Below, in pieces: positions 3,033-58,949 of a stretch of 64,000 nucleotides of DNA (its first letter is position 1; the number at the start of each line of letters is the position of its first letter). Source of the DNA: Scytonema millei VB511283 (GTDB lineage: Bacteria > Cyanobacteriota > Cyanobacteriia > Cyanobacteriales > Chroococcidiopsidaceae); the NCBI RefSeq assembly GCF_000817735.3, contig NZ_JTJC03000002.1, positions 504,242 through 568,241 on the forward strand, in the 5' to 3' direction. The notes below the pieces were generated by a model. That model made no database searches, was not told the DNA's origin, and saw only the letters and a list, made by a program, of their open reading frames with translations. The translations under genes were made by a program, and so were the position numbers.

Positions 3033-3070
3033 TTTTAGGGGGCGTACAGCTAGCTGTACGCCCCCTAAAA
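3033..3070. repeat. Diverged family-A palindrome; bidirectional terminator candidate
   Basis: A perfect 38-bp palindrome (arms TTTTAGGGGGCGTACAGC around TA) lies between the convergent zinc-ribbon and DUF3172 genes. The arms begin with A-runs on one strand and end with T-runs on the other, so it could terminate both transcripts. It resembles the family-A element but carries GTACAGC in place of CGCACAG. Confidence 0.7.
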
Positions 3071-10524: not shown

Positions 10525-10585
10525 GTAGGGGCGGGTTTATCGACGATCTCTACCGCTAGATGAAGATCTTGACAAACCCGCCCTC
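10525..10585. repeat. Family-B element (copy B1)
   Basis: An inverted-repeat element with outer arms GTAGGGGCGGGTTT and AAACCCGCCCTC around an AT-richer centre of about 35 bp. It lies between the convergent SAM hydrolase and glgA genes. Confidence 0.8.
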
Positions 10586-14149: not shown

Positions 14150-14362
14150 ATGCGACTCAAACGATGGGAGTCGCCCCGTCGCGAAGGTAGAAACGACAAA
14201 GGTAGAGGCGGTGCGGCAAGAGCCAGACAATTGAAGAAACAGGCGCAGATGATGCGTCAAAAGCTAAAAGAAGGCGATAAAGCCGGAAATAATCAAAATA
14301 ACCGCAAGAAAGAGGGGAAGGACAAGAAAAATCCTTCTCCTCTTTTTTTATTAAAAATGTAG
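14150..14362 (+). CDS. Small basic protein, 70 aa, unknown
   Basis: A 70-residue, highly basic, disordered-looking protein (RREGRNDKGRGGAARARQLKKQAQMMRQKLKEGDKAG) preceded by GGAG 7 bases before the ATG. It starts 37 bases after tRNA-Leu and could share its transcript. The last 15 or so codons coincide with a strong rho-independent terminator, so the C-terminal KKEGKDKKNPSPLF is dictated by the hairpin. No family is recognised; its charge suggests nucleic-acid or ribosome contact, which is inference. Confidence 0.55.
   Translation: MRLKRWESPRREGRNDKGRGGAARARQLKKQAQMMRQKLKEGDKAGNNQNNRKKEGKDKKNPSPLFLLKM
14311..14349 (+). terminator. Rho-independent terminator inside a coding 3' end
   Basis: A 12-bp stem (AGAGGGGAAGGA with TCCTTCTCCTCT, one G-T pair), 9-base loop and six following T residues. 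It overlaps the last codons of the 70-residue ORF. Confidence 0.8.
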
Positions 14363-14388
14363 GGGCGCACAGTCGTGCGCCCCTACAT
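14357..14388. repeat. Family-A palindrome (copy A2)
   Basis: ATGTAGGGGCGCAC, loop AGTC, then the exact reverse complement. It lies between the terminator and the convergent GspE-type gene. Confidence 0.85.
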
Positions 14389-22536: not shown

Positions 22537-22563
22537 GTAGGGGCGCACAGCCGTGCGTCCGCG
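22537..22563. repeat. Family-A palindrome (copy A3) between kdpA and kdpB
   Basis: GTAGGGGCGCAC, AGCC, then GTGCG with a slightly decayed right arm. It directly abuts the kdpA stop codon, so the kdpA-kdpB mRNA carries a hairpin right after the first gene. Confidence 0.8.
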
Positions 22564-24246
22564 TTAATTGCCAGATACTAGTTGAAATCCTTCTGCAATT
22601 GGTCCCAAAGCTAGGATGGGGAAGAATGTGAGTACGCCAAGGATGAGAATTACGCCAGCCGTAACGCCTGTAAATAGCAGCGTGTCAGTTCTCAAAGTAC
22701 CAGTTGTTTCTGGAACTGGCTGTTTGCGTGCCATGCTATCGGCTAATAGCAACAAGGCAATAATTGGTAAGTATCGTCCAGCTAATAAGCTGAAACAAGC
22801 GGTTAAATTCCACCATAAAGTAGCATCTCCTAATCCTTCAAAGCCAGAACCATTGTTAGCGGCAGCTGAGGTATATTCGTAGACAACTTGAGAAATTCCG
22901 TGAAACCCAGGGTTGCTAATTCCTGCTAAGGTATCAGGAAAGGCAAGGGTAATCGCACTGGGAATTAAAATCGCGATCGGGTGGACGAGTAAAATAACGC
23001 TAGCAAGAACGATTTCCCGTTTTTCAATTTTGCGTCCCAAAAATTCTGGGGTTCTCCCTACCATTAAACCCGTGAGAAACACGGTCAAAATTAGGTAAAC
23101 GAACAAATAAGCCGTTCCCGTTCCCTGTCCGCCCCAAACCATTTGAACGAACATATTAAATAGGGTGGAAAATCCCCCATTGGGCATAAGAGAATCGTGC
23201 ATTCCATTGACTGCACCGCACATCGTTCCTGTTGTTAAGACTGCCCACAATGCGGTTTCTGCCCAACCAAATCTGATTTCTTTGCCTTCTAAATTGGGCT
23301 GGTCGCCAATTAAATTATTTACGAGAGGGTTGCCTTGATATTCACCTACTCCTGTCACGACAACTAGCGTGACAAAAATGATAAATACCATCCAAAACAG
23401 CAACCACCCCTGCTTTTTATTATTAGCAAAGATACCGTAGGTGATGATTAATGCGGCTGGAACGCAAACCATCGCAATCATTTCTACCAAATTTGTAAAC
23501 GCATTTGGGTTTTCAAAGGGATGGGCGGAGTTGATGCCAAAAAAGCCGCCGCCATTTTCTCCCAGTTCTTTAATAATTTCAAAATGGGCAACTGGACCTC
23601 TGGCAATAACTTGAGTTGCGCCCTCTAAAGTAGTAACTGTTGCTGGTTCTGCTAGGGTTTCTGGTACACCTGCAATTAATAATGCGATCGCCCCTACGAT
23701 CGAAATTGGCAGTAAGATTCGGGTAATCGATCGCACTAAATCCACATAAAAATTACCTAGAGGTCTACCCGTCAAACCGCGAATAAAGGCTATTCCTACA
23801 GATAACCCCGTGGCGGCTGAGGTAAACATCAAAAATCCTAAAGCTAGCATTTGACTGGCATAACTAAAGGTTGTTTCACCAGAATAATGCTGTTGATTGG
23901 TGTTTGTGACAAATGAGATAGTGGTGTGTAGGGCTAAATCCCAACTGGATGCTGGTAAATTCGTTGGATTTAAGGGCAATCTTTCCTGAAACATTAATAT
24001 GAAATAAACAAAAATGCCCATCACAATATTGCTGTAAAGTATTGCTTGGGCGTATTGCCATCCGGTCATATCACCTTTGGTACGGATGCCTCCTAAAGTA
24101 TATATAATCCGTTCTATTGGCTTTGCCACCGGATCGAGAAGCGTTCTCTTTTCTAAGAAAACAGAGGCGATGTAGCTACCAAAGAAAGGAGTGATGGCTA
24201 CCAAAATAATGAGTGTTATTGCAATTTGAAAAAATCCTTGCCACAT
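22564..24246 (-). CDS. kdpA: Potassium-transporting ATPase subunit A
   Basis: A 560-residue KdpA, the K+-channel-like subunit with about ten membrane helices. All four selectivity-filter-type loops can be seen: [40 protein letters not shown] and [10 protein letters not shown]. Length is typical. It is first in the operon, with about 520 bp upstream shared with a divergent sensor kinase. Expression is probably induced by K+ limitation or desiccation, as in other cyanobacteria; that is from family knowledge. Confidence 0.97.
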
Positions 24247-26467: not shown

Positions 26468-26530
26468 GTAAGGGCGGGTTTACCAGCAATCTCTGCTGCT
26501 TATCTAGATCTCGGTGAACCCGCCCTTACA
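26468..26530. repeat. Family-B element (copy B3)
   Basis: Arms GTAAGGGCGGGTTTACC and GGTGAACCCGCCCTTAC, with about 30 bp between. It lies downstream of the truncated response regulator. Confidence 0.85.
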
Positions 26531-27887: not shown

Positions 27888-28194
27888 AACGCACCTTTTG
27901 TTTTCTAAGTGAAAATTGAATATGAGATCATCCTAGAATGAGGTTGATTTTTATTTAACCGCAAATTCACTGGTTTATTCTGCACTTGTGCAGCTGTCTC
28001 CGCATTCTTACTTAGACATGACTAGGTATTTATTGGTATATTCTCAGGTGATGGGATGCGATCGCCTATTTTAAAAGGTATATCGGTAAGGTTACTGAAT
28101 TGCTGAGATGAAACACGTAACCTGTAGTAGGGGCGCACAGCTGTGCGCCTCTACAAGTATCATGCTGTATAGAATATTTACGTTCTCATCCCCA
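27888..28194. other. Intergenic region upstream of the BioF-like gene
   Basis: 307 bp between divergent genes. It contains the family-A palindrome A4 and otherwise AT-rich sequence, presumably both promoters. Confidence 0.4.
28127..28154. repeat. Family-A palindrome (copy A4)
   Basis: GTAGGGGCGCACAG followed by its near-exact reverse complement (one C-to-T change), 40 bp upstream of the BioF-like start. The frame is open through it (SRGAQLCAS), but I place the start downstream. Confidence 0.85.
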
Positions 28195-29379
28195 ATGTCA
28201 AACGATCCTTATGCTTGGATAGAACAATCTCTAGCAACCATCCACAAAGCCAATTGGTATCGCGTCGTACAGACAATTGACAGCCGCCCTGGTGCTACAA
28301 TCCAGATGGAAGGGCGATCGCTACTCAATTTTGCTAGTAACGACTACTTAGGGTTAGCAGGGGACGAACGCCTAATTCAAGCCGCTATAACGGCTACGCA
28401 GATATACGGTGCGGGAAGTACGGGTTCTCGTTTACTTAGCGGACATCGAGAATTGCATCGAGAATTGGAACGAGCGATCGCAATCTTAAAACAAACTGAC
28501 GATGCTTTGGTTTTCAGTTCTGGATATTTGGCAAATTTAGGCACAATTGCGGCTTTAGTTGACAAACGAGATCTAATTCTTTCAGACCAATACAATCATT
28601 CTTGCTTAAAAAATGGAGCGCTTCTCAGTGGTGCAACAATTATTGAGTATCCCCACGGCGATATTTTGTTTTTAAAAACCCAATTAGAACAACGCGATCG
28701 CTACCGTCGTTGTTTAATTATGACTGATAGCGTCTTTAGTATGGATGGGGATTTATGTCCTTTACCAGAACTAATAGATCTAGCAGCGCAATTTAACTGT
28801 ATGCTATTAATTGATGAGGCTCACGCTACTGGAGTTTTTGGTGAGACTGGGGCTGGTTGTGTCGAACATTTTAATCTTACTGGTAGCCCGTTAATTCAAG
28901 TCGGAACTTTGAGTAAAGCTTTAGGAAGTTTAGGCGGTTATGTCGCAGGTTCAGCCGCTTTAATTGACTTTTTACGCAACCGTGCGGCTAGTTGGATTTA
29001 TACTACAGCTCTTTCTCCTGCTGATACTGCGGCTGCGATCGCGGCAATTTCTATTGTACGGGAAGAACCAGACCGCAGACAGAAACTCTGGCAAAATATT
29101 AATTATTTAAAACAGTTACTTACTCAAGAATTACCCCAATTAAAATTATTACCTTCTGAGTCGCCAATTCTGTGTTTGCAATTAGCAGATGCAGCGACGG
29201 CTTTAAAATTTGGTTCGGATTTGAAAGAGTTGGGAATTTTTGCCCCAGCAATTCGTCCCCCCACCGTACCGACAAGTAGGATTAGATTTTCCATAATGGC
29301 GACTCATGAGTTAAGTCAGATTGAGCAATTAGTAGAAATTTTGTGTCAGCTTAATTCTCAGGTGCATTTCAAGATATAG
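28195..29379 (+). CDS. bioF: 8-amino-7-oxononanoate synthase-type aminotransferase
   Basis: A 394-residue PLP-dependent alpha-oxoamine synthase starting at ATG 28195 ([16 protein letters not shown]). It condenses pimeloyl thioester with alanine in biotin synthesis if a true BioF. The motifs are [56 protein letters not shown] and the PLP-lysine context [18 protein letters not shown]. Length (about 385 in E. coli) and motifs fit. The frame remains open 29 codons upstream, through a family-A repeat, which is unlikely to be coding. No other bio gene is adjacent, so a related acyl-CoA specificity cannot be excluded. Confidence 0.85.
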
Positions 29380-45987: not shown

Positions 45988-46144
45988 ACTGATAACTGTC
46001 AACTGATAACTGTCAACTGATAACTGTCAACTGATAACTGTCAACTGATAACTGTCAACTGATAACTGTCAACTGATAACTGTCAACTGATAACTGTCAA
46101 CTGATAACTGTCAACTGATAACTGTCAACTGATAACTGTCAACT
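45988..46144. repeat. 14-bp tandem repeat, about 11 copies
   Basis: Near-perfect ACTGATAACTGTCA units (two heptamers each) over 157 bp, between convergent genes. The LD-carboxypeptidase stop codon (46125-46127) and last residues (QLTVIS) are read from its right end on the bottom strand. It is likely length-variable. Confidence 0.95.
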
Positions 46145-47048
46145 GCCCTTTATCTGCATCTAAAGTTGCGGGAATACCAACGGGTAACGCGGCATTAACT
46201 CCATCGTGACCGAAGGGTAAATCGGAAACTATAGGAAGATTTAAATCGCTCAGGCGATCGCGCAATACTTCCTCTATAGTTAAACTAGAAATATTGGCTG
46301 GTGCTTCGCAACGGCTAAAGCGTCCTAAAGCAATACCTTTAACCTGAGTAAATGCACCACTCAAACGCCATTGTGTCAACAGGCGATCGATCCGATACGG
46401 TGCTTCGGTAACATCTTCTAAGGCAAGAATCACATCATCAAAATTCGGTTGAATCGACGTACCCAGGAGATGAGTCGCAACAGTCAGATTTGCTGGTAGC
46501 AACACACCCGTCATCACGCCACCACCCCAACCTGTACCCTGGAGGGGAGGTAGAGGACGACCTTCCACCCAATCAAATAATCTTTGTCTAGACCAATCTG
46601 GTTCCCCTGCTAGCGTCGTCAATACAGGTGCATGAACTCCTGAAATCCCTTCTTTACTCAGACTCCAGAGTAAAGCCGTGATGTCGGAAAAACCAATCAA
46701 CCATTTGGGTAATGATATAGGGGCGCACAGCTGTGCGCCCCTGCCAACCATCCACGTCCAATCTTCCAAAATCCTCATCCCACCGTAGCCACCCCTGGCA
46801 CAGAGGATACCGCGACAGTCGGGATCTTGCCATGCATCGAGGAGTTGTTGGCGACGGCTAGCGTCTGTTCCGGCTAAATATCCAAAAGTGTCGCCAATTG
46901 TAGGACTAACTTTAACTTGATAACCGCGCGATCGCCATATTTCGATCCCCTTTTCAAATGCTGCCATTTCTCGTAAAGCACCGCTAGGGGCAATTACCTT
47001 TAATAAATCTCCTGGTTTTAATGGTGGTGGCGGCTGGCAAATAAACAT
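46125..47048 (-). CDS. LD-carboxypeptidase (S66 family) with in-frame family-A insertion
   Basis: A 307-residue muramoyltetrapeptide carboxypeptidase-type protein that trims L,D bonds in peptidoglycan recycling. It has LKPGDLLKVIAPSG, LCARGGYGGMRIL, nucleophile Ser in LIGFSDITALLWSL, Glu in LALEDVTEAPYRIDR and His in LPFGHDGVNAALP. Between LEDWTW and PKWLIGFSD the protein reads [14 protein letters not shown], where the family has a short loop; those codons are family-A palindrome A5. The C-terminal TVIS and stop come from the adjacent tandem array. Confidence 0.92.
   Translation of the reverse strand: MFICQPPPPLKPGDLLKVIAPSGALREMAAFEKGIEIWRSRGYQVKVSPTIGDTFGYLAGTDASRRQQLLDAWQDPDCRGILCARGGYGGMRILEDWTWMVGRGAQLCAPISLPKWLIGFSDITALLWSLSKEGISGVHAPVLTTLAGEPDWSRQRLFDWVEGRPLPPLQGTGWGGGVMTGVLLPANLTVATHLLGTSIQPNFDDVILALEDVTEAPYRIDRLLTQWRLSGAFTQVKGIALGRFSRCEAPANISSLTIEEVLRDRLSDLNLPIVSDLPFGHDGVNAALPVGIPATLDADKGQLTVIS
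46717..46744. repeat. Family-A palindrome (copy A5) inside LD-carboxypeptidase
   Basis: TAGGGGCGCACAG and its reverse complement, read in frame on the bottom strand as [10 protein letters not shown]. Confidence 0.9.
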
Positions 47049-47144
47049 TGCTGCATATAGCGAAACTGTAGTTAGCGTAAAATATACTTGGGAGGTATAC
47101 GATTATGCAAATAGCTAATACAGATTTAATGGGAAGAATTATAA

Positions 47145-48230
47145 CTACAAAATATCCCTAAACCACTGCTCAAACCGATCGCCTAGCGCCTCTAAAGAAA
47201 ATTCTGCTTCGGCTTGTTGACGGCACGTATAACGGTCAATCTCATCCAAACGCGCGATCGCATTTACCAATCCCTCTACACTATCTGGTGTGACTAAAAA
47301 CCCCGTCTTTCCATCTTGAATAATTTCTGCTGGTCCTCCACGGCGATATGATATGACTGGTACACCGCAAGCTAAAGCTTCAATCGCTACGTTGCCGAAT
47401 GCTTCTACCCAGCGCGGAGTCATTAACATTGCCCGACATTGACGCAATTCTTGCTGCATCTTTGTTGTCGAAAGAAACCCTAAATATTCAAAAGATGCAT
47501 CGGAATAATTTTGACAAATTTGCTGCCAATAGTCTTCATCTTGAATTTTTCCCATGATTTTAAGGGGAATTTTAGCAATTTGAGCTGCCGCAATCGCATC
47601 TTCTAAGCCCTTTTCAGGAGCAATCCTCGCTAACCAAGCTAATTTGTTTTGCGGTTGAGGACAAAACTCGTATAAAGATAAATCAATGCCGCTACTGAGG
47701 TAGTATACAGGTAGATTGTTGTGCAGGGGCGCACAGCTGTGCGCCCCTACGAAGGAAAATGTTGCCCCTTGAGAGGGTGTATAAAATCCTATTGTCCCTG
47801 GAAATTGCTCTGCAACTTGTGCCACAATTTCATCCATTGCATTATAAATTGAACCCATACTGACGAAATGAGCGATGGGAGTTTTAAAAAAAGGTGTGAG
47901 ATAAAATGGCAACCAATCGTAAGCAAAATTGACAATTAAATCGTACTCATTCTGTACTTGTCTTGCATATTCGCACATATTTGCCAAGACAGAATTTTCG
48001 GGCATAGTAATGGGTGCATTTCGTTCTTGACTCTGGGCAATAACTTGTAAATTACCAGGAATTTCTATAATAGGCATTGACTCAAGTTTTGAGCCTTGGG
48101 GAGCAAGAATTTGCAGCGTATGCCCCCGCTTTATCATTTCTTGAGCGATATTGTACAGGCTTAATTCTACTCCACCCCCCAGCCCTGTACCGAGGGGTCC
48201 CACGGAAGTAGAGATAAATAACAGTTTCAA
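47145..48230 (-). CDS. GT4 family glycosyltransferase with in-frame family-A insertion
   Basis: A 361-residue retaining glycosyltransferase. The N-terminal Rossmann half begins LLFISTSVGPLGTGLGGGVELSLYNIAQEMIKRGH, and the C-terminal GT1-type half has LAWLARIAPEKGLEDAIAAAQ, FEYLGFL and EAFGNVAIEALACGVPVISYRRGGPAEI with the E-x7-E. Donor and acceptor are unknown. Between SQGATFSF and the conserved strand YYLSSGIDLSLYEF the sequence reads [15 protein letters not shown]. The first part is a translated family-A palindrome (A6), read in a different frame from A5 and A8. Confidence 0.9.
   Translation of the reverse strand: MKLLFISTSVGPLGTGLGGGVELSLYNIAQEMIKRGHTLQILAPQGSKLESMPIIEIPGNLQVIAQSQERNAPITMPENSVLANMCEYARQVQNEYDLIVNFAYDWLPFYLTPFFKTPIAHFVSMGSIYNAMDEIVAQVAEQFPGTIGFYTPSQGATFSFVGAHSCAPLHNNLPVYYLSSGIDLSLYEFCPQPQNKLAWLARIAPEKGLEDAIAAAQIAKIPLKIMGKIQDEDYWQQICQNYSDASFEYLGFLSTTKMQQELRQCRAMLMTPRWVEAFGNVAIEALACGVPVISYRRGGPAEIIQDGKTGFLVTPDSVEGLVNAIARLDEIDRYTCRQQAEAEFSLEALGDRFEQWFRDIL
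47724..47752. repeat. Family-A palindrome (copy A6) inside the GT4 gene
   Basis: GCAGGGGCGCACAG plus inverse, read on the bottom strand as VGAHSCAPL. Confidence 0.9.
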
Positions 48231-48270
48231 TTGTGGTTGGTAGTTGGTAGTTGGTAATAGGTAATTGATA
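48228..48270. repeat. Heptamer array (TTGGTAG / TAATTGA)
   Basis: Three or four TTGGTAG-type units cover the region just upstream of the GT4 start codon. Confidence 0.7.
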
Positions 48271-48482
48271 GGTGTAAGATATCGAGATTAGATTGCATTT
48301 CAACCTTTTCTAGCTACTCTACCAGCTACCCATCTGACATTGTAAGTAAGTATTGATTTTGACACGTAAGTTAAAAATTCGTTGCAATCGAAACAATGTA
48401 TATTCTAAGAAAGTTTTTGGGCAATCTATAGCTAGGAAGCTCATGCCTGCACTCTTAATGCCCATCATCTTAGTAGATAACC

Positions 48483-51374
48483 ATGAAATCGTCTCAACCG
48501 ATCGCGTCACCACAAGAGCAAGATATTCCAAAACATACAAACTTTAGAGGATTGTCTCTACGATTAGTTCTAGTCTTACCTTTTGTGCTGGAAATTGTTG
48601 GCGCAGTGGGATTGGTAGGCTATCTTTCCTTCAAAAATGGGCAAGGAGCAGTTAGCGATCTTGCCGATCGCTTGATGGATAAAAGTAGTAATTTAGTGTC
48701 CGAACACCTCAATAATTATTTAGAAACTCCTCAAAGACTCAATCAAATTAATGTTGATGCGATCGAGCTTGGTTTGTTGAACTTAAAAAATTTTAAGACG
48801 ACAGGACATTATTTTTGGAAACAAATGCAAGCTTATCCTGAAATAACTTATATTTCTCATGCACTGACAACAGGAGAATTTGCTGGTGCAGGAAGATTTT
48901 TAGCAGGAAAGGGAGTTACCATAGATGAACTTTCAGGTGCGACTAAGTGGAAAACATACACCTACACTACAGACGCTCGGGGCAACCGTGCAAAAGTAGC
49001 AGCAGTATATGATGACTACGAACCTTTAATGGAAGTTTGGTACAAGGAAACAGTTAAAGCAGGTAAACCAATATGGAGTTCAGTAGCTAACTGGGATGGA
49101 GAAAATTTAGCAGGATATATATCTATTACAGCTAATCAACCTATTTACGATCGCCAAAATCAGCTTATTGGTGTCATAGGAATCGATTTACTATTAGCCA
49201 ATATTAGTCATTTTTTACAACAATTAAAAATCAGTCCTACAGCCAGAACTTTTATTATCGAGCGTGATGGTTTACTAATTGCATCTTCTAGTACTGAAAA
49301 ACCTTTTACCATAATTAATGGCGTAGCTAAAAGGCTAAGCGTCCTGAATAGCTCGGACTCTCAAATTCAAGCTACAGCTAAACATTTACATCAACAATTC
49401 GGTGATTTTCAAAAGATTACAGGCACACAAAAACTGAATTTTCAATTACAAGGAAAAGAGCAGTTCATTCGAGTCACTCCCTGGCAAGATAAATTTGGGC
49501 TGAATTGGCTAGTCGTGACTACCATCCCCGAATCAGATTTCATGGCACAAATTCATGCCAACAACCAGACAACCATCATTCTTTGTTTTATAGCGCTTGT
49601 AGTAGCAGTTTGGTTAGGATTAATTACTTCTCGTTGGATTACTCAACCAATCCTACGTTTGAGTAAAGCTTCAGTGGCGATCGCTCAAGGAAATTTGAAC
49701 CAACAAGTAGAAGTTAAAAACATCGTTGAACTTAGAATATTGTCGCATTCTTTCAATGAGATGGCGCAGCAATTACAAGCATCCTTTGCTAATTTAGCTC
49801 AAACCAATCAAGAACTCGATCGCAAAAATCAAGAATTTATTAAAGTTAATGAAAAGTTAGATAAGGCGAACCAAGAATTAGAAATTACTAATGATGAACT
49901 CGAACTTCGAGTTGAGAAAAGAACAGTCGAATTACAACAAGCTAAAAACATAGCAGAATTAGCCAATCGTGCTAAAAGCGAATTTTTAGCAAACATGAGT
50001 CATGAATTAAGAACTCCTCTCAACGCCATTCTTGGTTTTTCCCAACTGATGAATCGCGAAGCCTCTTTAACAAAACAGCAACAGGAAAATTTGGGAATTA
50101 TCAATCGCAGTGGCGAGCATTTACTCTCGCTAATTAATGACATACTAGACTTAGCTAAAATTGAGTCAGGAAAAATGACTCTTTATCCAACTGACTTCGA
50201 TCTATATGCCTTATTAGACTTGATGGAAGAGATGTTGGCATTACGAGCAGAATCTAAGAATTTACAACTTACTATCGCTCGCAATAACAATTTACCTCGA
50301 TATATTAAAACTGACGATAAAAAATTGCGGCAAGTTTTAATTAATCTATTGGGTAATGCTATTAAATTTACTGACAAAGGAAGCATAATCTTAAGAGCCT
50401 GGTTAGGAGAGCAAAAACAAATAATAGCTAACGAGCAACCAATAACTATTCATTTTGAAGTTGAAGATACTGGTACAGGTATTGCACCCGCAGAAATTGA
50501 TAGTCTGTTTGAAGCATTTGTTCAAACGGAAACGGGTAAACAATCTCAACAGGGAACTGGATTAGGCTTACCTATTACCAAAAAGTTTATCGAACTGATG
50601 GGAGGAGAGATTACTGTTACTTCCGAGCTAGAAAAAGGTACGGTTTTTAAATTTGACATTCAAGTTTTAGCAAGCGAAGTTAATAAAGTTAGCGGACAGA
50701 AAATAATTCAAAGAGTTATTGAACTTCAACCAAATCAACAGGAGTATCGGATTTTAGTAGTAGACGATCGCTGGGAGAATCGCCAGCTTTTATTAAGATT
50801 ATTAGAACCAATTGGTTTTCAAGTTAAAGAAGCAGCTAACGGACAAGAAGCAATAGAAATGTGGCAACAATGGCAACCACATTTGATTTGGATGGACATG
50901 CGAATGCCAGTCATGAATGGTTATGAGGCAACTCAACAGATTAAATCTCATTTGCAAGGACAAGCTACTGCAATTATTGCCCTCACAGCCAGTACTCTTG
51001 AAGAAGAAAAAGCAATAGTTCTTTCAGCTGGATGCGATGATTTTGTCCGCAAACCTTTTCATGAAGAAGTCATTTTTGACAAAATGGCTCAATTTTTAGG
51101 CGTGCGATATATTTATGAAGAGATTGACTCTACAAATATTTCTGTCGCTGTAAATATTATAAATTTGACGGCGGAAGCTTTAACAATTATGTCTAATGAA
51201 TGGTTAGTCAAACTGTCGGAAGCAGCCGCTTTACTTGACGAGCAACAAATTGCTCAACTATTAACTCAGATACCCGAAGAAAATCAAGCTTTAGCTCAAT
51301 CTATCCAAAAAGAAGTCGATGAATTTGATTTCGATCGCATTATGAACCTTGCTCAAACGGCTGCCAATTTATGA
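48483..51374 (+). CDS. Cache-HAMP hybrid sensor histidine kinase / receiver
   Basis: A 963-residue hybrid kinase. Membrane helix 1 is at about residues 27-48; an extracellular double-Cache region (about 50-350) has [13 protein letters not shown] and [19 protein letters not shown]. Helix 2 is [15 protein letters not shown] (about 360-378), then HAMP, a long coiled coil, H-box [14 protein letters not shown] with H507, N-box [12 protein letters not shown]-boxes [10 protein letters not shown] and GTGLGLPI. A receiver domain carries D805 ([14 protein letters not shown]). The C-terminal 90 residues are helical without a clear HPt His. The stop overlaps the next ATG in ATGA, so it should signal to the REC-GGDEF-EAL protein. 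Confidence 0.93.
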
Positions 51375-53206
51375 ATGATATTCAGTTGAGTCAGACTTAT
51401 GAACGTATTTTATTGGTAGATGATATACCTGATAATTTGCGAGTTTTATCTACATCTTTAATCGAACGAGGTTATCAAGTTCGTTGTGCTAAAAATGGTT
51501 TGATGGCGTTGAATGCTGCTAGTAAAGAACCACCTCAGCTGATTTTACTGGATATCAAAATGCCAGACATGGATGGCTATGAAGTTTGTCGAAACTTGAA
51601 AAATAATGACTCGACTCGCGATATACCAGTTATTTTTCTGAGCGCTTTAGACGATGTTTTTGATAAAGTAAAAGCTTTTACAGTTGGCGGTGCAGACTAT
51701 ATTACAAAACCCTTTCAAATCGAAGAGGTTTTAGTTCGCGTTCGGCATCAGTTAGATTTGCAAACAGCAAAGGCAGAGATTTATCAGTTAAATACTAAAT
51801 TAGAACAAAAAGTCCAGCAAAGAACTGCACAACTCGAAACAGTTATTAACAAACTGAATCTAGAAATTAACGAACATAAACAAACACAAGAAAAACTCAT
51901 CCATCATGCTTTGCACGATGCTTTGACGGGTTTACCAAATCGAACGTTGTTCATGGAGCATCTGCAAAAATCTCTTTACCGTATTACTAGAAATAACGAT
52001 TATTTATTTGCCGTATTATTTATCGATCTCGACCGCTTTAAAATTATTAACGATAGCTGGGGACACGTTGTCGGCGATCGCCTTTTAATTGCGATTTCTC
52101 GTATTCTTCAAGAGTGCTGCCGTGAGTTAGATACTGTGGCACGTTTAAGTGGAGATGAGTTTACTATCTTATTAGAAAATCTACAACACTTTCAAGATGC
52201 GATCGCGATCGCCGAGCGACTGTTAGATAAACTCGCTGCTCCAATCGATTTAGATGAATATCAAGTATATATTGGTGCTAGCATTGGCATTGCTTTGGGT
52301 TCTGTAACTTACCAAACTAGCGATGAATTACTACGAGATGCCGATATTGCGATGTACCGTGCCAAGGCTTTAGGAAAAGGACGTTATGCAGTCTTCGATC
52401 GCGAGATGTACGCTCAAACGTTGCATCTTTCACAAATAGAAGTAGACTTGCGGTATGCTTTGGAACGTCAAGAATTTATCCTGCATTATCAACCAATTAT
52501 TTCTCTAACAACTGGTAGACTGACGGGTTTTGAAGCCTTGTTACGCTGGCAGCATCCACAAAGAGGATTGATTTATCCAGGGGATTTTATGACAATTGCC
52601 GAAGAAACTGGCTTAATTGTCCCGCTGGGTGAATGGATTTTACAGGAAGCTTGCCAACAGTTGCATCTTTGGCAACAAAAGTTTTCCACTGCTGCATCTT
52701 TATATATCAGCGTCAATCTCTCTAGCAAGCAAATTAAACAGTTTAACTTTGTGGATAAGTTAGCTTGGATTTTGGCTGATACTGGTTTAAGTGGCAGAAA
52801 TCTGAAATTAGAATTGACTGAAACTATGTTAATGGATCGAGGAGAAAAGACAATCGAACTTCTTTCCCAGATCAAAGAACAAAATATTCAACTCAGCATT
52901 GATGACTTTGGCACGGGATATTCCTCTTTAAGTTATTTACACCGTTTCCCGATAGATGCGCTGAAAATCGATCGCTCTTTTGTCAGTCCAATTGACGCAG
53001 AAGGCAAAAACTGTGAAATAGTCAAGACAATTATTACTCTAGCTCATGCTTTAGGAATTAAAGCGATCGCCGAAGGAGTAGAGACAGCCGCACAATTAGC
53101 TGTATTAAAAAAATTAGGATGTGAGGAAGCACAAGGATATTTCTTTGCCAAACCCGTCAACTCTCAACTAGCAGAAGCGATCGCCTCTAAAAATCCCCAA
53201 TGGTAA
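51371..53206 (+). CDS. Response regulator REC-GGDEF-EAL (c-di-GMP turnover)
   Basis: A 611-residue protein. REC domain ([13 protein letters not shown], Asp in [17 protein letters not shown]), a coiled coil (about 130-175), a GGDEF domain with active motif SGDEF and an upstream RELD inhibitory site five residues before it, and an EAL domain with all metal-binding segments: [48 protein letters not shown] and QGYFFAKP. It likely hydrolyses c-di-GMP; synthesis is possible if SGDEF is active. It overlaps the hybrid kinase by four bases. Confidence 0.94.
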
Positions 53207-53230
53207 TTTACTATTAATTTAATAGATTTC

Positions 53231-53276
53231 TTATACCATTTTACTAAAACTATGCTATGGACGATCCCCCCAACCC
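53231..53276. repeat. Left half of family-C element (copy C2) with target duplication
   Basis: The TTATACCATTTTACTAAAAC arm runs to GATCCCCCC. The last 10 bases before the IS (CCCCCAACCC, 53267-53276) are the left copy of the target duplication. Confidence 0.75.
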
Positions 53277-53296
53277 CAATACTTCTCGGTTAAGCC

Positions 53297-53458
53297 TTAA
53301 GCAGAGTTGGGAATCGCAAAAATAAGTTGCGGTCGTTGGGTTTCCCGCTCGAGATGATGTCGCTTCTTGGCAGGAAACTTTGACCTGGGCTTTTTGACCA
53401 CTCTCGGATTGACTCTGCCTTGAGGGGGTGGAATTTGAGCATCGAGAATCTCGCGCAT
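53297..53458 (-). CDS. Out-of-frame C-terminal tail of the IS transposase
   Basis: A 53-residue frame (MREILDAQIP start) in the -1 frame after the transposase stop, with ATG overlapping the stop (TGATG). RVNPRVVKKPRSKFPAKK looks like the usual basic C-terminus of IS4-family transposases. Either a frameshift in CCCCTTTTTGG (near 53470) separated it, or ribosomal slippage or reinitiation there makes a full-length protein. Confidence 0.6.
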   Translation of the reverse strand: MREILDAQIPPPQGRVNPRVVKKPRSKFPAKKRHHLERETQRPQLIFAIPNSA

Positions 53459-54693
53459 CAACCAACTCCAAAAAGGGGAAGTTCATCAGGGGAGACCACT
53501 TGAAATTTAGCTACGGCTCGACGCAAAACGTGCAACGTGCCAGTAAAGCTCAAGCACAACGGTGAGATACCTTCTAGTTGTGCCGCTTGCACCATTAACG
53601 AACGCACTGCCCAATGCCCGAGCAATAACCCGTAAACCTCCTGCACCACCTCACGGGGCTTGAGCGAACGAATCGGCACCTTGCGTCCAAGTAAATGCGT
53701 TTTGACTTCATCTATCGTCGTTTCCACTTGCCACCGTTGATGATATTGCTCGGCTAACAACAGGGCAGGAAACTGTTGCCGGTCGAGCAAGCTGGTAATC
53801 AGTCGGTAACTTTGTTGCTGTTCAGGTTGTTGGGCATTGTCAATGGTGTACTCAATCACCCGCACTTGCATTCGGGTTGCTCCTTTTTTCTTTGATTTCC
53901 GGTCTGGATAAATCCAACTGAGATAGGAGCCATCCGAGAGCACTTGCTCGACTTCAAACTTGACATTGGCAGGCACTCGTCCCAAGTAATGTCCTCCCCG
54001 TGCCACGGTTGCTTGCACCATTGCAAACGAATGCAGTCCTCGGTCCCACATCAGCAGCATTCCTGTGCCAATCGCTCGCAGCAGTCGCAGTGCCCGTCGT
54101 CGTTCCCCCATGCGATACGGGCAGATAAGCGCATCAGTAATCAAATGCGTTCCTGCTTCAATTAACAGTACCAGTCGCACTTTGGGAAATGCCGCCTGAT
54201 GACCAAAGCGAGTTCCGGGATAGCCAAACACCCGTGCATTGGCTTTGCTGTCTGGGATATCCAGCAATGTGCCATCCACTGCCATCAATCGCAACCCGCC
54301 TAGAAATGCCCCAGGTGTTTCTGCTGTGGCTAACGGTCGCACCACTTGCTCAAATAACTGCCGCATCACCTGGCATCCCAACTTGGCTCGTGCCTCACTG
54401 ATTGAGGCACTGTTGGGCACTTTCCAATACTGCGCTAAGCGTGTCCATTGCACACTGAGCCCATCCACCAAGTTCTTGAGCACCTCTCGCATCGCTGCTT
54501 TCGACCAAAAGCTGAAGGCGATGACTAAGCACACGACCAAGTGAGCAGGCAGTTTCCGTTGTCGTTGACTTTGGCAATGACTCTTAGCGATTGTCTGATG
54601 AATTAACTCGATAGGAATGACAGTTTCAATCGCTTTGAACACTTGTCCTGCTCCAATCGTGGGACTAATCAGGGTGAATTCTCGTAGTTGCAT
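53458..54693 (-). CDS. IS4-family DDE transposase (possibly frameshifted at 3' end)
   Basis: A 411-residue transposase. It has the first Asp in LMAVDGTLLDIPD, the second in LMWDRGLHS and Glu in YHQRWQVETTIDEVK, which fits Y-x2-R-x3-E-x6-K of IS4. An N-terminal IS4-type helical region (residues 1-115) is present. It ends PDELPLFGVG, where reading one base back would continue FWSWLMREILDAQ into the tail frame. It may therefore lack the last 55 or so residues unless slippage occurs. Confidence 0.93.
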   Translation of the reverse strand: MQLREFTLISPTIGAGQVFKAIETVIPIELIHQTIAKSHCQSQRQRKLPAHLVVCLVIAFSFWSKAAMREVLKNLVDGLSVQWTRLAQYWKVPNSASISEARAKLGCQVMRQLFEQVVRPLATAETPGAFLGGLRLMAVDGTLLDIPDSKANARVFGYPGTRFGHQAAFPKVRLVLLIEAGTHLITDALICPYRMGERRRALRLLRAIGTGMLLMWDRGLHSFAMVQATVARGGHYLGRVPANVKFEVEQVLSDGSYLSWIYPDRKSKKKGATRMQVRVIEYTIDNAQQPEQQQSYRLITSLLDRQQFPALLLAEQYHQRWQVETTIDEVKTHLLGRKVPIRSLKPREVVQEVYGLLLGHWAVRSLMVQAAQLEGISPLCLSFTGTLHVLRRAVAKFQVVSPDELPLFGVG

Positions 54694-54761
54694 CGGGCAG
54701 GGAATGAAAAGGTTATTACATCCTGTAATTTACCAGTTTTGTCCTTAACCGAGAAGTATTG

Positions 54762-54834
54762 CCCCCAACCCCCCTTATCAAGGGGGGCTAGGGGGGATCT
54801 CTTTTGTCGTAGTCAAAGAGTAAATTGGTATTAC
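54762..54834. repeat. Right half of family-C element (copy C2)
   Basis: CCCCCAACCC begins the half (right target duplication copy). Then CCCTTATCAAGGGGGGC, a second G-run and an arm ending AAATTGGTATTAC that is imperfectly inverse to the left arm at 53231. Confidence 0.75.
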
Positions 54835-54922
54835 AAAAATACTGAAGATATGCAATTCAACACAGATGGATGTTGGGTGTTGCAAGAAACATTAGGAATG
54901 AAAATCTTTTTTCCTGACTCCA

Positions 54923-54950
54923 GTACGGGCGCATAGCCGTGCGCCCCTAC
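54923..54950. repeat. Family-A palindrome (copy A7)
   Basis: GTACGGGCGCATAGCCGTGCGCCCCTAC overall, written here as arms GTACGGGCGCA and TGCGCCCCTAC with several decayed positions, just after the EamA gene stop. Confidence 0.8.
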
Positions 54951-54964
54951 GAATTCCGATTTCC

Positions 54965-56056
54965 TTATAACTCTGATTTGTTTGTAGGTACAGGTATGGA
55001 CTTTGCTGATTCTAAAGTTTGTCTAGATTCGGATGAATGTGACTCTTGCGTTGTACTTTTCTGAAACAATAGTTCTAATTTCTCTCGCTGATTCACCAGG
55101 TAAATACTAACTAAGGTGAGAGAAACGCCCGTCCACTGGATGGGGCTGAGAACTTCGGAGAGAATTAAGTTGCCAAATAAGAGGGCAAATACAGGTGTGA
55201 GAAAGGTGAGGGCGCTGAGACTGGTAAGATTACCGCTAGAAGCGAAGTAGAAAAATAGTCCATAGGCGATCGCACTACCAAAAATCGTGGCATAACTTAG
55301 CGATATCCACCCAGATAAACTAATATCTGCCCATTGCCCAGCCTCTAACCCCGCAGAAAGAGCAAATAAGGGAATTCCACCGATAATCATATGCCATCCC
55401 GTTGCTGAGACTGGATCGGCGTGACGACAAACATAACGAATAGCTACCGTACCGACAGCCATTGATAGGGCTGCAAGTAACATCAACCATTCGCCGCTGG
55501 CGAATAAGGATTGTAGGGGCGGATTCACCTGAAATATTTGTTGCAACACTGACATATCTGGTAAACCCGCCCCTACAGGGGTAATACCAGAAAATAGGTT
55601 GAGAATTAAATTATCTGGTAAGCCAATTAAACTAATCCCCAGTACGCCAAACATCAATCCCAGCCATCCCCATAAACCGATTCGTTCGCCAAATAGCCAA
55701 CTCGACATTAAAGCCACGGCTAGAGGCTGGGAGTCAATCATCACCGATCCTAAACCCGCCCCAGTTCTGACTAAACCTTCAGCCAAGAAGCCTTGAAATA
55801 AAGATCCATCAATTAAGGCAAATAGACTTATCCACAACCACGCCGCCCATCCTTTAGGCTGAGGTCTACCCATCGCCATTGCTGCACCTAATACTAATAT
55901 GCCAGCAGGCAACAGCCTTACTCCTGCCATAAATAAAGGTGTTGTATGGGGAATAACGCCTTTCATCGCTACCATTGCTGTTCCCCAGAGAAAAAAGGGT
56001 GCGATTAGTAGCACGGAGGCAAAGGGCAATCTTGATTCAGTCAGTTTCAGATGCAT
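54965..56056 (-). CDS. EamA/DMT family transporter with 22-residue family-B insert
   Basis: About 363 residues from ATG 56056 (MHLKLTESRLP). Ten membrane helices in two EamA repeats: APFFLWGTAMVAMKGVIPHT, GVRLLPAGILVLGAAM, GLVRTGAGLGSVMIDSQPLAVALMSSW, then SLSYATIFGSAIAYGLFFYFA and LSALTFLTPVFALLFG. It is probably an exporter or permease for amino acids or nucleotide-like solutes; specificity unknown. In the cytoplasmic or periplasmic loop before GEWLMLLAALSMAVG, the residues PVGAGLPDMSVLQQIFQVNP are the translation of family-B element B5, an insert of exactly 66 bp. C-terminal tail Ser-rich. Confidence 0.9.
   Translation of the reverse strand: MHLKLTESRLPFASVLLIAPFFLWGTAMVAMKGVIPHTTPLFMAGVRLLPAGILVLGAAMAMGRPQPKGWAAWLWISLFALIDGSLFQGFLAEGLVRTGAGLGSVMIDSQPLAVALMSSWLFGERIGLWGWLGLMFGVLGISLIGLPDNLILNLFSGITPVGAGLPDMSVLQQIFQVNPPLQSLFASGEWLMLLAALSMAVGTVAIRYVCRHADPVSATGWHMIIGGIPLFALSAGLEAGQWADISLSGWISLSYATIFGSAIAYGLFFYFASSGNLTSLSALTFLTPVFALLFGNLILSEVLSPIQWTGVSLTLVSIYLVNQREKLELLFQKSTTQESHSSESRQTLESAKSIPVPTNKSEL
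55512..55577. repeat. Family-B element (copy B5) inside the EamA gene
   Basis: 66 bp with 18-nt imperfect arms (TGTAGGGGCGGATTCACC and GGTAAACCCGCCCCTACA). Its length is a multiple of three, and it is read in frame. Confidence 0.9.
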
Positions 56057-56213
56057 GGGATGGCTGACGGCTGGGATGAGATGACATTTCTCCGATCTTA
56101 ATCGATTATGTATTTTTGTGAAGCGATCGCCCTGCACTGTAACAGAAATCTACAGAGAAAAAATGTTCTATGCTTAAAGTCTAAATTGAGTTACGTCTGG
56201 TATATAACTGTAC

Positions 56214-57035
56214 ATGCTACGGCTGTTTAAAACCCCTTTTCGCAAACAAATTGCACGGCTAGAAATTACTGGGGCGATCGCGAGTGCGACGCGCAAAAGA
56301 GTTCTAGAAGCCCTCAAAACTGTAGAAGAAAGACGCTTTCCCGCCTTACTACTCCGCATTGATAGCCCTGGCGGTACGGTAGGAGATTCTCAGGAAATCT
56401 ATAGTGCTTTAAAACGACTGCGAGAAAAAATCAAAATTGTTGCCAGTTTTGGTAATATCTCTGCTTCTGGCGGTGTCTATATTGGTATGGGAGCCAGTCA
56501 TATTGTGGCAAACCCAGGTACGATTACGGGTAGTATTGGGGTAATTCTGCGGGGTAACAACCTAGAACGCTTGCTAGATAAGATTGGTGTTTCGTTCAAA
56601 ACGATCAAATCCGGTCCTTATAAAGATATTTTGGCTTTCGATCGCGAATTGACAGAACCAGAACAACATATTTTGCAAGAATTGATCGATACCAGCTATC
56701 GGCAATTCGTTCAATCTGTGGCTGAAGGGCGAAATCTGACAGAGGAAGCTGTGAGAAGCTTTGCAGACGGACGCATTTTCACCGGACAGCAAGCTTTAGA
56801 GTTAGGCGTTGTGGATCGGTTGGGAACTGAAGAAGATGCCCGTCGTTGGGCAGCAGAGTTAGTCGGACTCGATCCTGAAAAAACCAAGTGTTTCACTCTA
56901 GAAGAACGCAAGCCCCCATTGCAGCGATTACTTTCTAGGGAGTCTACGGTAGCATCTGGTTTATTAACTGGGGTAGATTGGTTAGAGTTTGAGCTATCTA
57001 CGAGTGGCTTACCTTTGTGGCTGTATCGTCCGTAA
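56214..57035 (+). CDS. sppA: Signal peptide peptidase SppA, short form
   Basis: A 273-residue SppA-type serine/lysine protease. LLLRIDSPGGTVGDSQEIY precedes the nucleophile region FGNISASGGVYIGMGA; TITGSIGVI follows, and the general-base Lys is in KSGPYKDILAFDRELTEPE. ADGRIFTGQQALELGVVDRLG is the C-terminal family motif. It is half the size of E. coli SppA (618), as in Bacillus and archaea. The protein degrades cleaved signal peptides. No strong N-terminal membrane anchor is visible, which is unusual for the family. Confidence 0.92.
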   Translation: MLRLFKTPFRKQIARLEITGAIASATRKRVLEALKTVEERRFPALLLRIDSPGGTVGDSQEIYSALKRLREKIKIVASFGNISASGGVYIGMGASHIVANPGTITGSIGVILRGNNLERLLDKIGVSFKTIKSGPYKDILAFDRELTEPEQHILQELIDTSYRQFVQSVAEGRNLTEEAVRSFADGRIFTGQQALELGVVDRLGTEEDARRWAAELVGLDPEKTKCFTLEERKPPLQRLLSRESTVASGLLTGVDWLEFELSTSGLPLWLYRP

Positions 57036-57060
57036 TTAAGATAATTTTGGCTGATTCTAG

Positions 57061-57108
57061 TTAACAGTTGACAGTTGACAGTTATCAGTTAACCGTCAAC
57101 CGTCAACC
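57061..57108. repeat. Heptamer inverted array (AACAGTTGACAGTT / AACCGTCAACC)
   Basis: Tandem TTGACAG heptamers followed by inverse TCAACCG units between sppA and aroH. Confidence 0.75.
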
Positions 57109-57174
57109 AAAAACGTTTTAAGAAGTCAACACAAAAAACTATTCAGTTAATTTAAATTAAGGGAGGAATTGAGC

Positions 57175-57591
57175 GTGGAGTGGCGATTAAAAGCAATTCG
57201 TGGGGCAACAACCGTTACAGAAAATACGGTGCAGGCAATTGACGAAGCCGTGACAGAAATGTTAAATGAGCTGGAAATGAAGAATCAGCTAGATCCGACT
57301 CAAATTGTGAGCGTCACTTTTACTGTCACTCGCGATCTCGATGCCATTTTTCCCGCTGCGATCGCCCGCAAGCGCCCTTTCTGGGATTGTGTAGCCATGC
57401 TTGACGTACAGCAGATGCATGTAGAAGGTAGTTTAGAACGTTGCATCCGCTGCTTAATCCACGCAAATCTTCCTGCTAACCAAGTCCAGGTTTGGCATCC
57501 TTATTTACGCAAAGCAAAGAATTTACGTCCCGATTGGAGTTCTCCCCAACGACTCGTACAACCAGAATCAGTCCAACCTCATTTAAGGTGA
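57175..57591 (+). CDS. aroH: Chorismate mutase, AroH type
   Basis: A 138-residue monofunctional chorismate mutase (chorismate to prephenate). I place the start at GTG 57175 (MEWRLKAIRGATTV), because GGGAGGA lies 8 bases upstream; TTG 57169 would be too close. Active-site residues include R7-G-A-T-T in RGATTV, E79-like in VEGSLERCIRCLIH and RPDW. The fold is the trimeric barwin-like AroH, as in B. subtilis (127 residues). Upstream sppA is separated by a heptamer array. Confidence 0.93.
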   Translation: MEWRLKAIRGATTVTENTVQAIDEAVTEMLNELEMKNQLDPTQIVSVTFTVTRDLDAIFPAAIARKRPFWDCVAMLDVQQMHVEGSLERCIRCLIHANLPANQVQVWHPYLRKAKNLRPDWSSPQRLVQPESVQPHLR

Positions 57592-57701
57592 TAGTAACTC
57601 GTTCCACATTTAATTAGCAAATAGGCAGCATTCAAAAGCCTTACTAGAAATATATTTTCCCTTTTTGACTTTCGACTTTTAACTTTTGACTTGCTTAACT
57701 T

Positions 57702-58949
57702 TCAACTGCAAAACTTTTCCACGCAACGCACGAAAATTTCTACTCCCATTCCTAAAGCAGTTTCATCAAAATCAAATCGAGGATGGTGGTGAGGATAAGC
57801 TAAGTTTCTGCTGAGATTAGCAGCACCTAAAAAGAAGTAACACCCTGGAACTTCTTGTAGGAAAAATGACATATCTTCACCACCCATTGTCTGACATTCC
57901 GGCACGATTCCAAGGGGCGTTTCTACAACTTTTTCAGCTTGCGATCGCACTAAATCTGCTATTTCTAAATTATTGATTACGGGTGGATACAATTGCCAGT
58001 AATCTAACTCATATGTCGCACCTTGACTTTGGCAAACACCTGCAACAACTTGTTCAAATCGTTGACCGAAATAGCCATCGTATTTAGGATTAAAATAACG
58101 AATTGTGCCACTTAAGTGAGCTGAATCTGCAATGACGTTATGGGCAGAACCAGCGTGAAATTCTCCTACCGTGACCACAGCAGAATCAATTGGATCGACA
58201 TTTCGCGCCACAATTGTTTGTAATGCATTCACAACTTGACTGGCGACGACAATAGCATCTACTGTTTGATGCGGCATTGCACCGTGTCCGCCTTTGCCTT
58301 TAATTTTGAGATCGAATAGTTCTACCGCAGCCATTAGCGCGTCGCTACGCACTCCAACCGTACCCAAAGGTAAGTTATTCCACAGATGCAAACCGATAAT
58401 TGCATCCACATTGGGATTTTTCAAAACTCCCGCTTCAATCATTGGCTTTGCGCCGCCTGGTCCTTCTTCTGCTGGTTGAAAGATAATTTTTACAGTACCC
58501 GCAAAATCTTCGCGGTGCTGGGAAAGATAGTATGCTGTTCCTAATGCGATCGCGGTATGTCCGTCATGTCCGCAAGCGTGCATCACACCATCATGTTGCG
58601 ACTTGTAAGGCACGTCATTTTGTTCTTGGATGGGTAACGCATCCATATCGGCACGAATGGCTAGGACGGGATGATTTGTAGGGGCGCACAGCTGTGCGCC
58701 CCTACTTAAGGTTTTTTTGCCATTGATGGTGGCGACAATGCCAGTTATGGCTATCCCTGTTTGATGTTCTATGCCCCATTCTTGCAACTTTTGCGTAATA
58801 AATTCAGATGTAATACGTTCCTTAAATCCCAGTTCTGGACGTTGATGCAACCGCCGCCGCCATTCTACCAATTGTGCTTGCAATGCTTGGATATCTGGAC
58901 GAATGCGGGAGCGATCGACTGTGAGAGGATTTAAGGAAGTAGAAACCAT
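57702..58949 (-). CDS. M20 family amidohydrolase with in-frame family-A insertion
   Basis: A 415-residue M20D-type metallohydrolase (N-acyl amino acid or hippurate hydrolase-like). Metal motifs are AIRADMDALPIQE, HACGHDGHTAIALG and PAEEGPGGAKPMIEAG, and the C-terminal domain has TMGGEDMSFFLQEVPG and AYPHHHPRFDFDE. The sequence just before PVLAIRADMDAL reads [13 protein letters not shown], the translation of family-A palindrome A8, in a loop normally only a few residues long. Reaction substrate unknown. Length otherwise matches the family (about 400). Confidence 0.93.
   Translation of the reverse strand: MVSTSLNPLTVDRSRIRPDIQALQAQLVEWRRRLHQRPELGFKERITSEFITQKLQEWGIEHQTGIAITGIVATINGKKTLSRGAQLCAPTNHPVLAIRADMDALPIQEQNDVPYKSQHDGVMHACGHDGHTAIALGTAYYLSQHREDFAGTVKIIFQPAEEGPGGAKPMIEAGVLKNPNVDAIIGLHLWNNLPLGTVGVRSDALMAAVELFDLKIKGKGGHGAMPHQTVDAIVVASQVVNALQTIVARNVDPIDSAVVTVGEFHAGSAHNVIADSAHLSGTIRYFNPKYDGYFGQRFEQVVAGVCQSQGATYELDYWQLYPPVINNLEIADLVRSQAEKVVETPLGIVPECQTMGGEDMSFFLQEVPGCYFFLGAANLSRNLAYPHHHPRFDFDETALGMGVEIFVRCVEKFCS
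58678..58705. repeat. Family-A palindrome (copy A8) inside the amidohydrolase gene
   Basis: A perfect 28-bp palindrome, arms GTAGGGGCGCACAG. It is read on the bottom strand as [10 protein letters not shown]. Confidence 0.95.

Follow-up and report, generated by a model that had tools for sequence, protein, structure and literature searches.

What kind of element is a 28-bp palindrome that recurs across one stretch of a cyanobacterial genome, in part inside the reading frames of conserved enzymes? The stretch, called the window throughout, comprises 64,000 nucleotides of Scytonema millei VB511283 (contig NZ_JTJC03000002.1, positions 504,242 to 568,241), and the source genome (G000; 5.97 Mb in 17 contigs) was compared with those of two congeners, G001 and G002. 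We conclude that the 28-mer is very probably a double-foot repetitive extragenic palindrome (REP), with GTAG/CTAC ends and a hairpin body, belonging to a REP-associated tyrosine transposase (RAYT, or TnpAREP) that is encoded elsewhere in the same genome. The element and its RAYT are of a known kind; what is added here to the published REPs of TnpAREP subclass 2.4 is one cyanobacterial genus, three genomes of which carry 122–258 copies each, some of them in frame in unrelated enzymes. The new class of cyanobacterial element proposed in an earlier note on this DNA is replaced by a known one, and a probable driver gene can be named.

Seven copies lie in the window, with the sequence GTAGGGGCGCAC-AGCT-GTGCGCCCCTAC (general form GTAGGGGCGCAC-N4-GTGCGCCCCTAC) and no strand assigned; two of the seven are noticeably decayed at one foot or arm. 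As the earlier note had claimed, three are in frame in conserved enzymes, all encoded on the minus strand: the copy at 46717–46744 in a gene for LD-carboxypeptidase (46125–47048), that at 47723–47750 in a gene for a GT4-type glycosyltransferase (47145–48230), and that at 58678–58705 in a gene for an M20 amidohydrolase (57702–58949). The copy at 14359–14386 is intergenic, 3′ of two convergent open reading frames (ORFs), and is also found at the orthologous place in G001, while 22537–22564, with a decayed right arm, lies between two minus-strand ORFs and 54923–54950 is intergenic, directly 3′ of ORF 54965–56137. The copy at 28127–28154 falls at the N-terminal end of ORF 28108–29379 (class I/II aminotransferase family), is probably upstream of the true start (MSNDPYAW...), and hence would not be translated. 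Eight copies had originally been counted. Five of those positions hold exactly, two were displaced (14357 by two bases, 47724 by one), and the eighth, at 3033–3070, is a different perfect hairpin, TTTTAGGGGGCGTACAGCTAGCTGTACGCCCCCTAAAA, which is terminator-like. Allowing one mismatch, the arm GTAGGGGCGCAC has 12 matches in the window, a number reached by 0 of 100 dinucleotide shuffles (mean 0.08, largest 1). The 28-mer itself is open in two frames and contains TAG in the third, again as noted before; a copy at window coordinate 114456, outside the window, is translated in this third frame because its foot there reads GTAC, not GTAG.

The earlier note had suggested searching the genome and its relatives for the core, and this search showed the element to be widely dispersed. 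With up to three mismatches, the 28-mer matched 258 times in the whole genome (reversed control pattern, 0) and 122 and 242 times in the two congeners. Among the 40 genomes searched, all from among the nearest and our own included, 18 contained a match and 22 did not. Of 146 genomes of the phylum, 21 (our own one of them) have a match to a pattern with a free centre, GTAGGGGCG-N10-CGCCCCTAC. Among the matches listed, the centre of the 28-mer changes from species to species, and in most cases it forms a palindrome that is perfect or nearly so: CACAGCTGTG in our own genome, AATGGCCATT and AACGGCCGTT in G149, AAAAATTTTT in G097, TACGGCCGTA in G068, TATTGCAATA in G082 and G095, and CAATGCATTG in G007 and G033 (the latter with the stricter pattern), with exceptions such as G024:C11 and G079:C1. 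The stem of the hairpin covaries. Across 18 distinct 28-mers, changes on both sides were seen in 6 of 12 stem pairs and all cells pair, a covariation score reached by 0 of 500 shuffles (the count of further pair types was reached by 21 of 500). These 18 were hand-picked, and the 100% pairing is partly selection because well-formed sequences were chosen; the free-centre pattern is the fairer evidence. The ends carry a 5′ GT[AG]G and a 3′ C[TC]AC at the two extremities of a long hairpin, as double-foot REPs do.

The gene that would move such a repeat was found with the RAYT protein of G095 as query, which gave matches in 22 of 25 genomes. In our own genome it identified G000:C1:216940-217467, and the repeat is associated with this gene: at the locus (L216), 28-mers lie at 1251 (further upstream), 1435 (just upstream), 1789 (in frame inside the gene, between the HuH and Y motifs), and 2064 (downstream), that is, four in 0.84 kb versus 0.04 expected by simple arithmetic from 258 copies in 5.97 Mb. 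The protein has a sole NCBIfam match, REP_Tyr_transpos (E ~2e-19, 69.5–69.8 bits), which is divided into two stretches by the insert. Its motifs NHIH, WQ, and YIINNP correspond to those in the subclass 2.4 row (NH[IFV]H, WQ, YIxNNP) of PMC6006769, and placed by these motifs it fits a RAYT/TnpAREP of subclass 2.4 type. Of 28 RAYT-type loci examined, a set selected in part for elements already known in the vicinity of some, nine have a 28-nt double-foot palindrome in the stop-to-stop frame or no more than 300 bp from it. In seven of the nine it is well inside the gene (L216, L292, L294, L296, L299, L190, and L300, with L299 and L190 from one genus); at L293 it sits at the N-terminal margin of that frame, and at L291 it is outside only. 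The internal copy in G033 and G082 has the same arms as the family dispersed in that genome, and in G149 it is one stem pair away from the commonest copy among the matches listed. TnpA of IS200/IS605 was also considered as a mobilizer and rejected: a Y1 profile search found eight IS200-type genes in our own genome, and with GTAGGGG or CCCCTAC sought 1.5 kb to each side, 0 of 8 loci had the 28-mer. Among Y1-type genes of relatives found with PF01797, the 28-mer was present at only 1 of 23 loci inspected (L190).

The precedent originally offered was the Rickettsia palindromic elements (RPE), which are palindromes translated in frame inside conserved genes. RPE and the 28-mer work alike in different hosts, a comparison made by description and not by sequence. 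Similar in another way are the small dispersed repeats (SDR) of Nostoc, reportedly described by Elhai et al. in 2008 as families of 21–27 nt that form hairpins and are sometimes nested in mini-transposons; like the 28-mer they would be very small mobile hairpin repeats of cyanobacteria, and they are said to have other sequences, so that the likeness is again one of description. RPE-4 and RPE-6 correspond to rickettsial repeats of the CGTC, not the GTAG, kind (PMC3733652). The closest system is instead the double-foot REPs of TnpAREP subclass 2.4 described by Quentin et al. 2018, who also report in-frame REPs inside tnpAREP (PMC6006769). As presented there, subclass 2.4 REPs have a 5′ GTAG foot with its 3′ complement and a long hairpin, and are abundant in Cyanobacteria; the 28-mer is alike, and likewise flanks a RAYT gene on both sides and sits in frame inside it. 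A second published group, the GTAG REPs of Di Nocera et al. 2013, includes three cyanobacterial families and occurs in Anabaena, Nostoc, and Cyanothece, with a 3′ intergenic bias (PMC3733652). The earlier note knew of no described cyanobacterial equivalent; these two are such equivalents in print. The GTAG REPs are 20–40 bp long, carry the GTAG tag, reach high copy number, and lie mostly between convergent or unidirectional ORFs according to that account, features shared by our element with its 258 copies. Intragenic GTAG REPs are described in several other taxa, notably in DNA repair genes (PMC3733652); here, too, DNA repair genes are hosts, namely those for RecJ and MutS2. GTAG REPs differ in being described as tagged at one end, and GTAG-12, -15, and -16 were set beside the 28-mer by description only (PMC3733652). 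A literal text search of the literature for the 28-mer returned three papers, all unrelated by title, and the passages and abstracts covered here did not mention REPs in frame in any of these enzymes.

To place the copies relative to genes we used crude ORF calls and a non-random sample of 42 copies: the first 24 perfect ones listed for contig 1, plus 18 with up to five mismatches from a 224-kb part of contig 2 that contains the window. Thirteen copies were inside ORFs, and discounting L003, a 104-aa ORF at a miniature inverted-repeat transposable element (MITE), left 12 copies in 11 genes. The in-frame hosts are the RAYT, the LD-carboxypeptidase, the GT4 glycosyltransferase, the M20 amidohydrolase, MutS2, RecJ, magnesium chelatase ChlH (with two copies), a PMT-like protein (its ORF runs off the end of the locus), a protein of 586 aa that matches no Pfam family, an acetate-CoA ligase with a GNAT domain, and a pyridine-nucleotide oxidoreductase. 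Genic copies are strongly depleted, given that the crude call makes 82% of the 224 kb coding (p 5e-14). In an AlphaFold2 model of the LD-carboxypeptidase (mean pLDDT 89.6), the only segment below 50 was residues 102–110, GRGAQLCAP, and the peptides RGAQLCAP and VGAHSCAP have no evident role. We also observed that ChlH (L158:13421-17263), MutS2 (L156:5384-7960), and L155:4474-7335 contain stretches of the type PTPGSRLPTP, PDSRLPTPDS, and EEDKEDKEDKEE that look like short tandem repeats inserted in linkers, whether the same ones or others.

Outside genes, 28 of the 42 sampled copies lay between ORFs, 14 of them convergent, 12 unidirectional (together the 26 that agree with the published GTAG pattern), and 2 divergent, against a background of intergenic bases that is 19% convergent, 48% unidirectional, and 33% divergent. 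The convergent excess had a binomial p of 2e-4, or 6e-4 when the copy at 28127, miscalled convergent, is left out (13/27). Seven sampled copies are at the centre of a 90-bp MITE (L003, L006, L009, L016, L019, L022, and window coordinate -31740; 22537 was a script hit and no composite), and therefore part of the spread is by hitch-hiking. The type example, L003:1469-1558, reads TAGCGGTTTTCAATTG...CAATCGAAAATTGCTA, with terminal inverted repeats TAGCRRTTTTCRATTG and a 3-bp TTA duplication. Eighteen contig-1 sites were mapped in the congeners, with no usable pair at three (L001, L006, L008). At shared orthologous elements, 22–28 of the 28 bases were kept in 15 ungapped comparisons, with a flank identity of 0.88–0.98, and because the element is kept about as well as its flanks, the 28-mer gives no sign of special conservation. 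Apparent loop inversions at shared sites (AGAT versus ATCT, GGCT versus AGCC) are each reachable by single changes from AGCT, and we do not claim them.

Several of our results weigh against a repeat spread by its RAYT. A clean single-REP empty site, with 28 bp gained and nothing else, was seen at none of the 18 mapped contig-1 sites and at none of the sites of the 224 kb with orthologous flanks. The one clean insertion, L003, which is missing from both G001 and G002, is a gain of 93 bp and consists of the REP-centred 90-bp MITE; at the remaining mapped sites the element is shared, or other repeats or a wider gap are seen. Each of the eight RAYT proteins that were scanned fell below the curated cut-off of 80 bits, a threshold that is NCBIfam's and stands outside the published definition of subclass 2.4. 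No 28-nt palindrome was nearby at 19 of the 28 RAYT-type loci, four of which lack a recognized RAYT ORF. G007, which has many copies, gave no RAYT match with the one query used, the inspected RAYT loci of G001 bear the other repeat family described below, and the cognate RAYT gene of G002 is broken by an in-frame stop; mobilization may be over in some lineages.

Two other accounts of the dispersal were considered. The 28-mer could be useful to the host and held by selection as an mRNA 3′-end hairpin, a termination aid, or a binding site, its genic copies being accidental. The convergent excess (14/28) fits this, as do foot changes on both arms at two orthologous sites (L012/G002 and L014/G001). 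A 3′ bias is, however, equally expected from selection against insertion into promoters and genes and is seen in other REPs (PMC3733652), and stabilizing 3′-end hairpins are reported as largely absent in the cyanobacterium of PMC13289151. With shared copies differing about as much as their flanks and no match in 22 of the 40 near genomes searched, we regard a host-useful element as unlikely. That the REP spread only as a passenger of the 90-bp MITE, or by gene conversion, with the RAYT irrelevant, is an account that draws on the seven MITE-centred copies and on the one clean insertion being a MITE. Yet the other 35 copies, including all 12 genic ones, are outside the MITE by the pattern used, and 28-mers with changed centres lie around or inside RAYT genes in several genera, which makes exclusive passage by this route decidedly improbable.

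For the in-frame copies, the alternatives are that the peptide is ancestral protein sequence with no insert, or that the interrupted genes are pseudogenes. The former finds a point in its favour in the LD-carboxypeptidase, whose copy is common to all three congeneric genomes. The peptide is nonetheless in none of 80 named homologues of this enzyme (the best 80 of 579 relatives) and, among the sequences recovered by anchor search, in 0 of 12 GT4 and 0 of 14 M20 sequences outside the genus. At the GT4 site both congeners are without the copy and read FSFVETSDRSIYYLSS, our own genome having a net gain of seven residues (+21 nt), and the same DNA recurs at ~250 other places in the genome; we give ancestral sequence practically no credence, and the in-frame enzyme copies are real and derived. 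The earlier note had proposed comparing each gene with homologues lacking the insert, and such homologues exist in the congeners for the GT4 gene and not for the LD-carboxypeptidase gene. In G002 the M20 site encodes VGTHSCAP, from the same REP translated in another frame, and in G001 the site holds a different sequence; two separate insertions could account for the difference in frame, as could a single one with later compensating indels. ChlH of G001 has a different sequence at both REP places, longer at the first and shorter at the second, and ChlH was not found in the G002 stretch examined. Pseudogenes are very unlikely on the evidence of selection: the ratio of nonsynonymous to synonymous substitution rates (dN/dS; Nei-Gojobori, own script) was 0.07–0.11 in seven comparisons of four host genes, including the LD-carboxypeptidase (Peptidase_S66 N and C domains, 307 aa; ~0.09), the GT4 glycosyltransferase (361 aa; 0.07–0.10), and the M20 amidohydrolase (TIGR01891, 415 aa; 0.08–0.11). 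These in-frame copies thus lie in genes under purifying selection, which, judged from their sequences, look functional and not pseudogene-like. At two further genic sites (L015, L018), net length differences were +6, +6, -81, and -60, all four multiples of three; at sites outside the genic class this holds for 9 of 24 comparisons. The host loops do vary in length, as claimed for all three window enzymes. The suggestion that the 28-bp core is made up to a multiple of three by two further bases, supplied by duplication or deletion of its flank, is not supported: net differences from the congeners were +21 nt in GT4 (both), +9/+18 nt in M20, and 0 in the LD-carboxypeptidase, where the element is in all three species.

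We return to a REP probably mobilized by its RAYT. The RAYT (Y1, HuH) would cut and rejoin single-stranded REP hairpins at the GTAG foot and so spread copies, which would land mostly in 3′ intergenic DNA, some travelling inside the 90-bp MITE. Selection would remove most insertions into genes, and a surviving genic copy would be one that lies in a flexible loop or linker, is translated in a frame free of stops, and has a net length that keeps the frame. A more tentative proposal, which we consider possible without favouring it, is that a limited number of protein loops serve repeatedly as landing sites: REP hairpins and unrelated small repeats would insert there and replace each other between sister species with the frame kept, and the repeats involved would include apparent short tandem arrays, a 64-bp GTAGGGGCGGGTTT family, and other hairpins. 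If true, core enzymes, among them ChlH, MutS2, and RecJ, would go on gaining new peptide loops from tiny transposase-driven repeats. M20 is the sharpest case, with the same REP in two frames in two sister species and another sequence in the third. The sampled copies of this one genome offer a natural set, a single 28-bp hairpin in frame in eleven genes, for which sister species show some of the loops empty, with the REP in another frame, or with another repeat. It allows a direct test of the rate at which REPs invade coding sequence and of the tolerance of proteins to them.

The LD-carboxypeptidase loop, between W and PKW, contains longer, unrelated inserts in several other cyanobacteria (L064, L072, L079, L094, L100, L106, L112, and L115–L117). 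The window segment 48259–54966 (~6.7 kb, from the GT4 gene to 54967) is missing from the syntenic place in both G001 and G002, and part of this segment recurs elsewhere in our own genome at 82% identity. The 64-bp family named above, GTAGGGGCGGGTTT...AAACCCGCCCCTAC (~64 bp), is present in the window at 55513–55576 and 26468–26530, with half copies near 10525 and 20380, and the copy at 55513 is in frame in an EamA transporter ORF (54965–56137). Other RAYT genes of the genus (L219, L221, L237, L290) have related copies or halves within them or nearby, and the family looks like the REP of a second RAYT.

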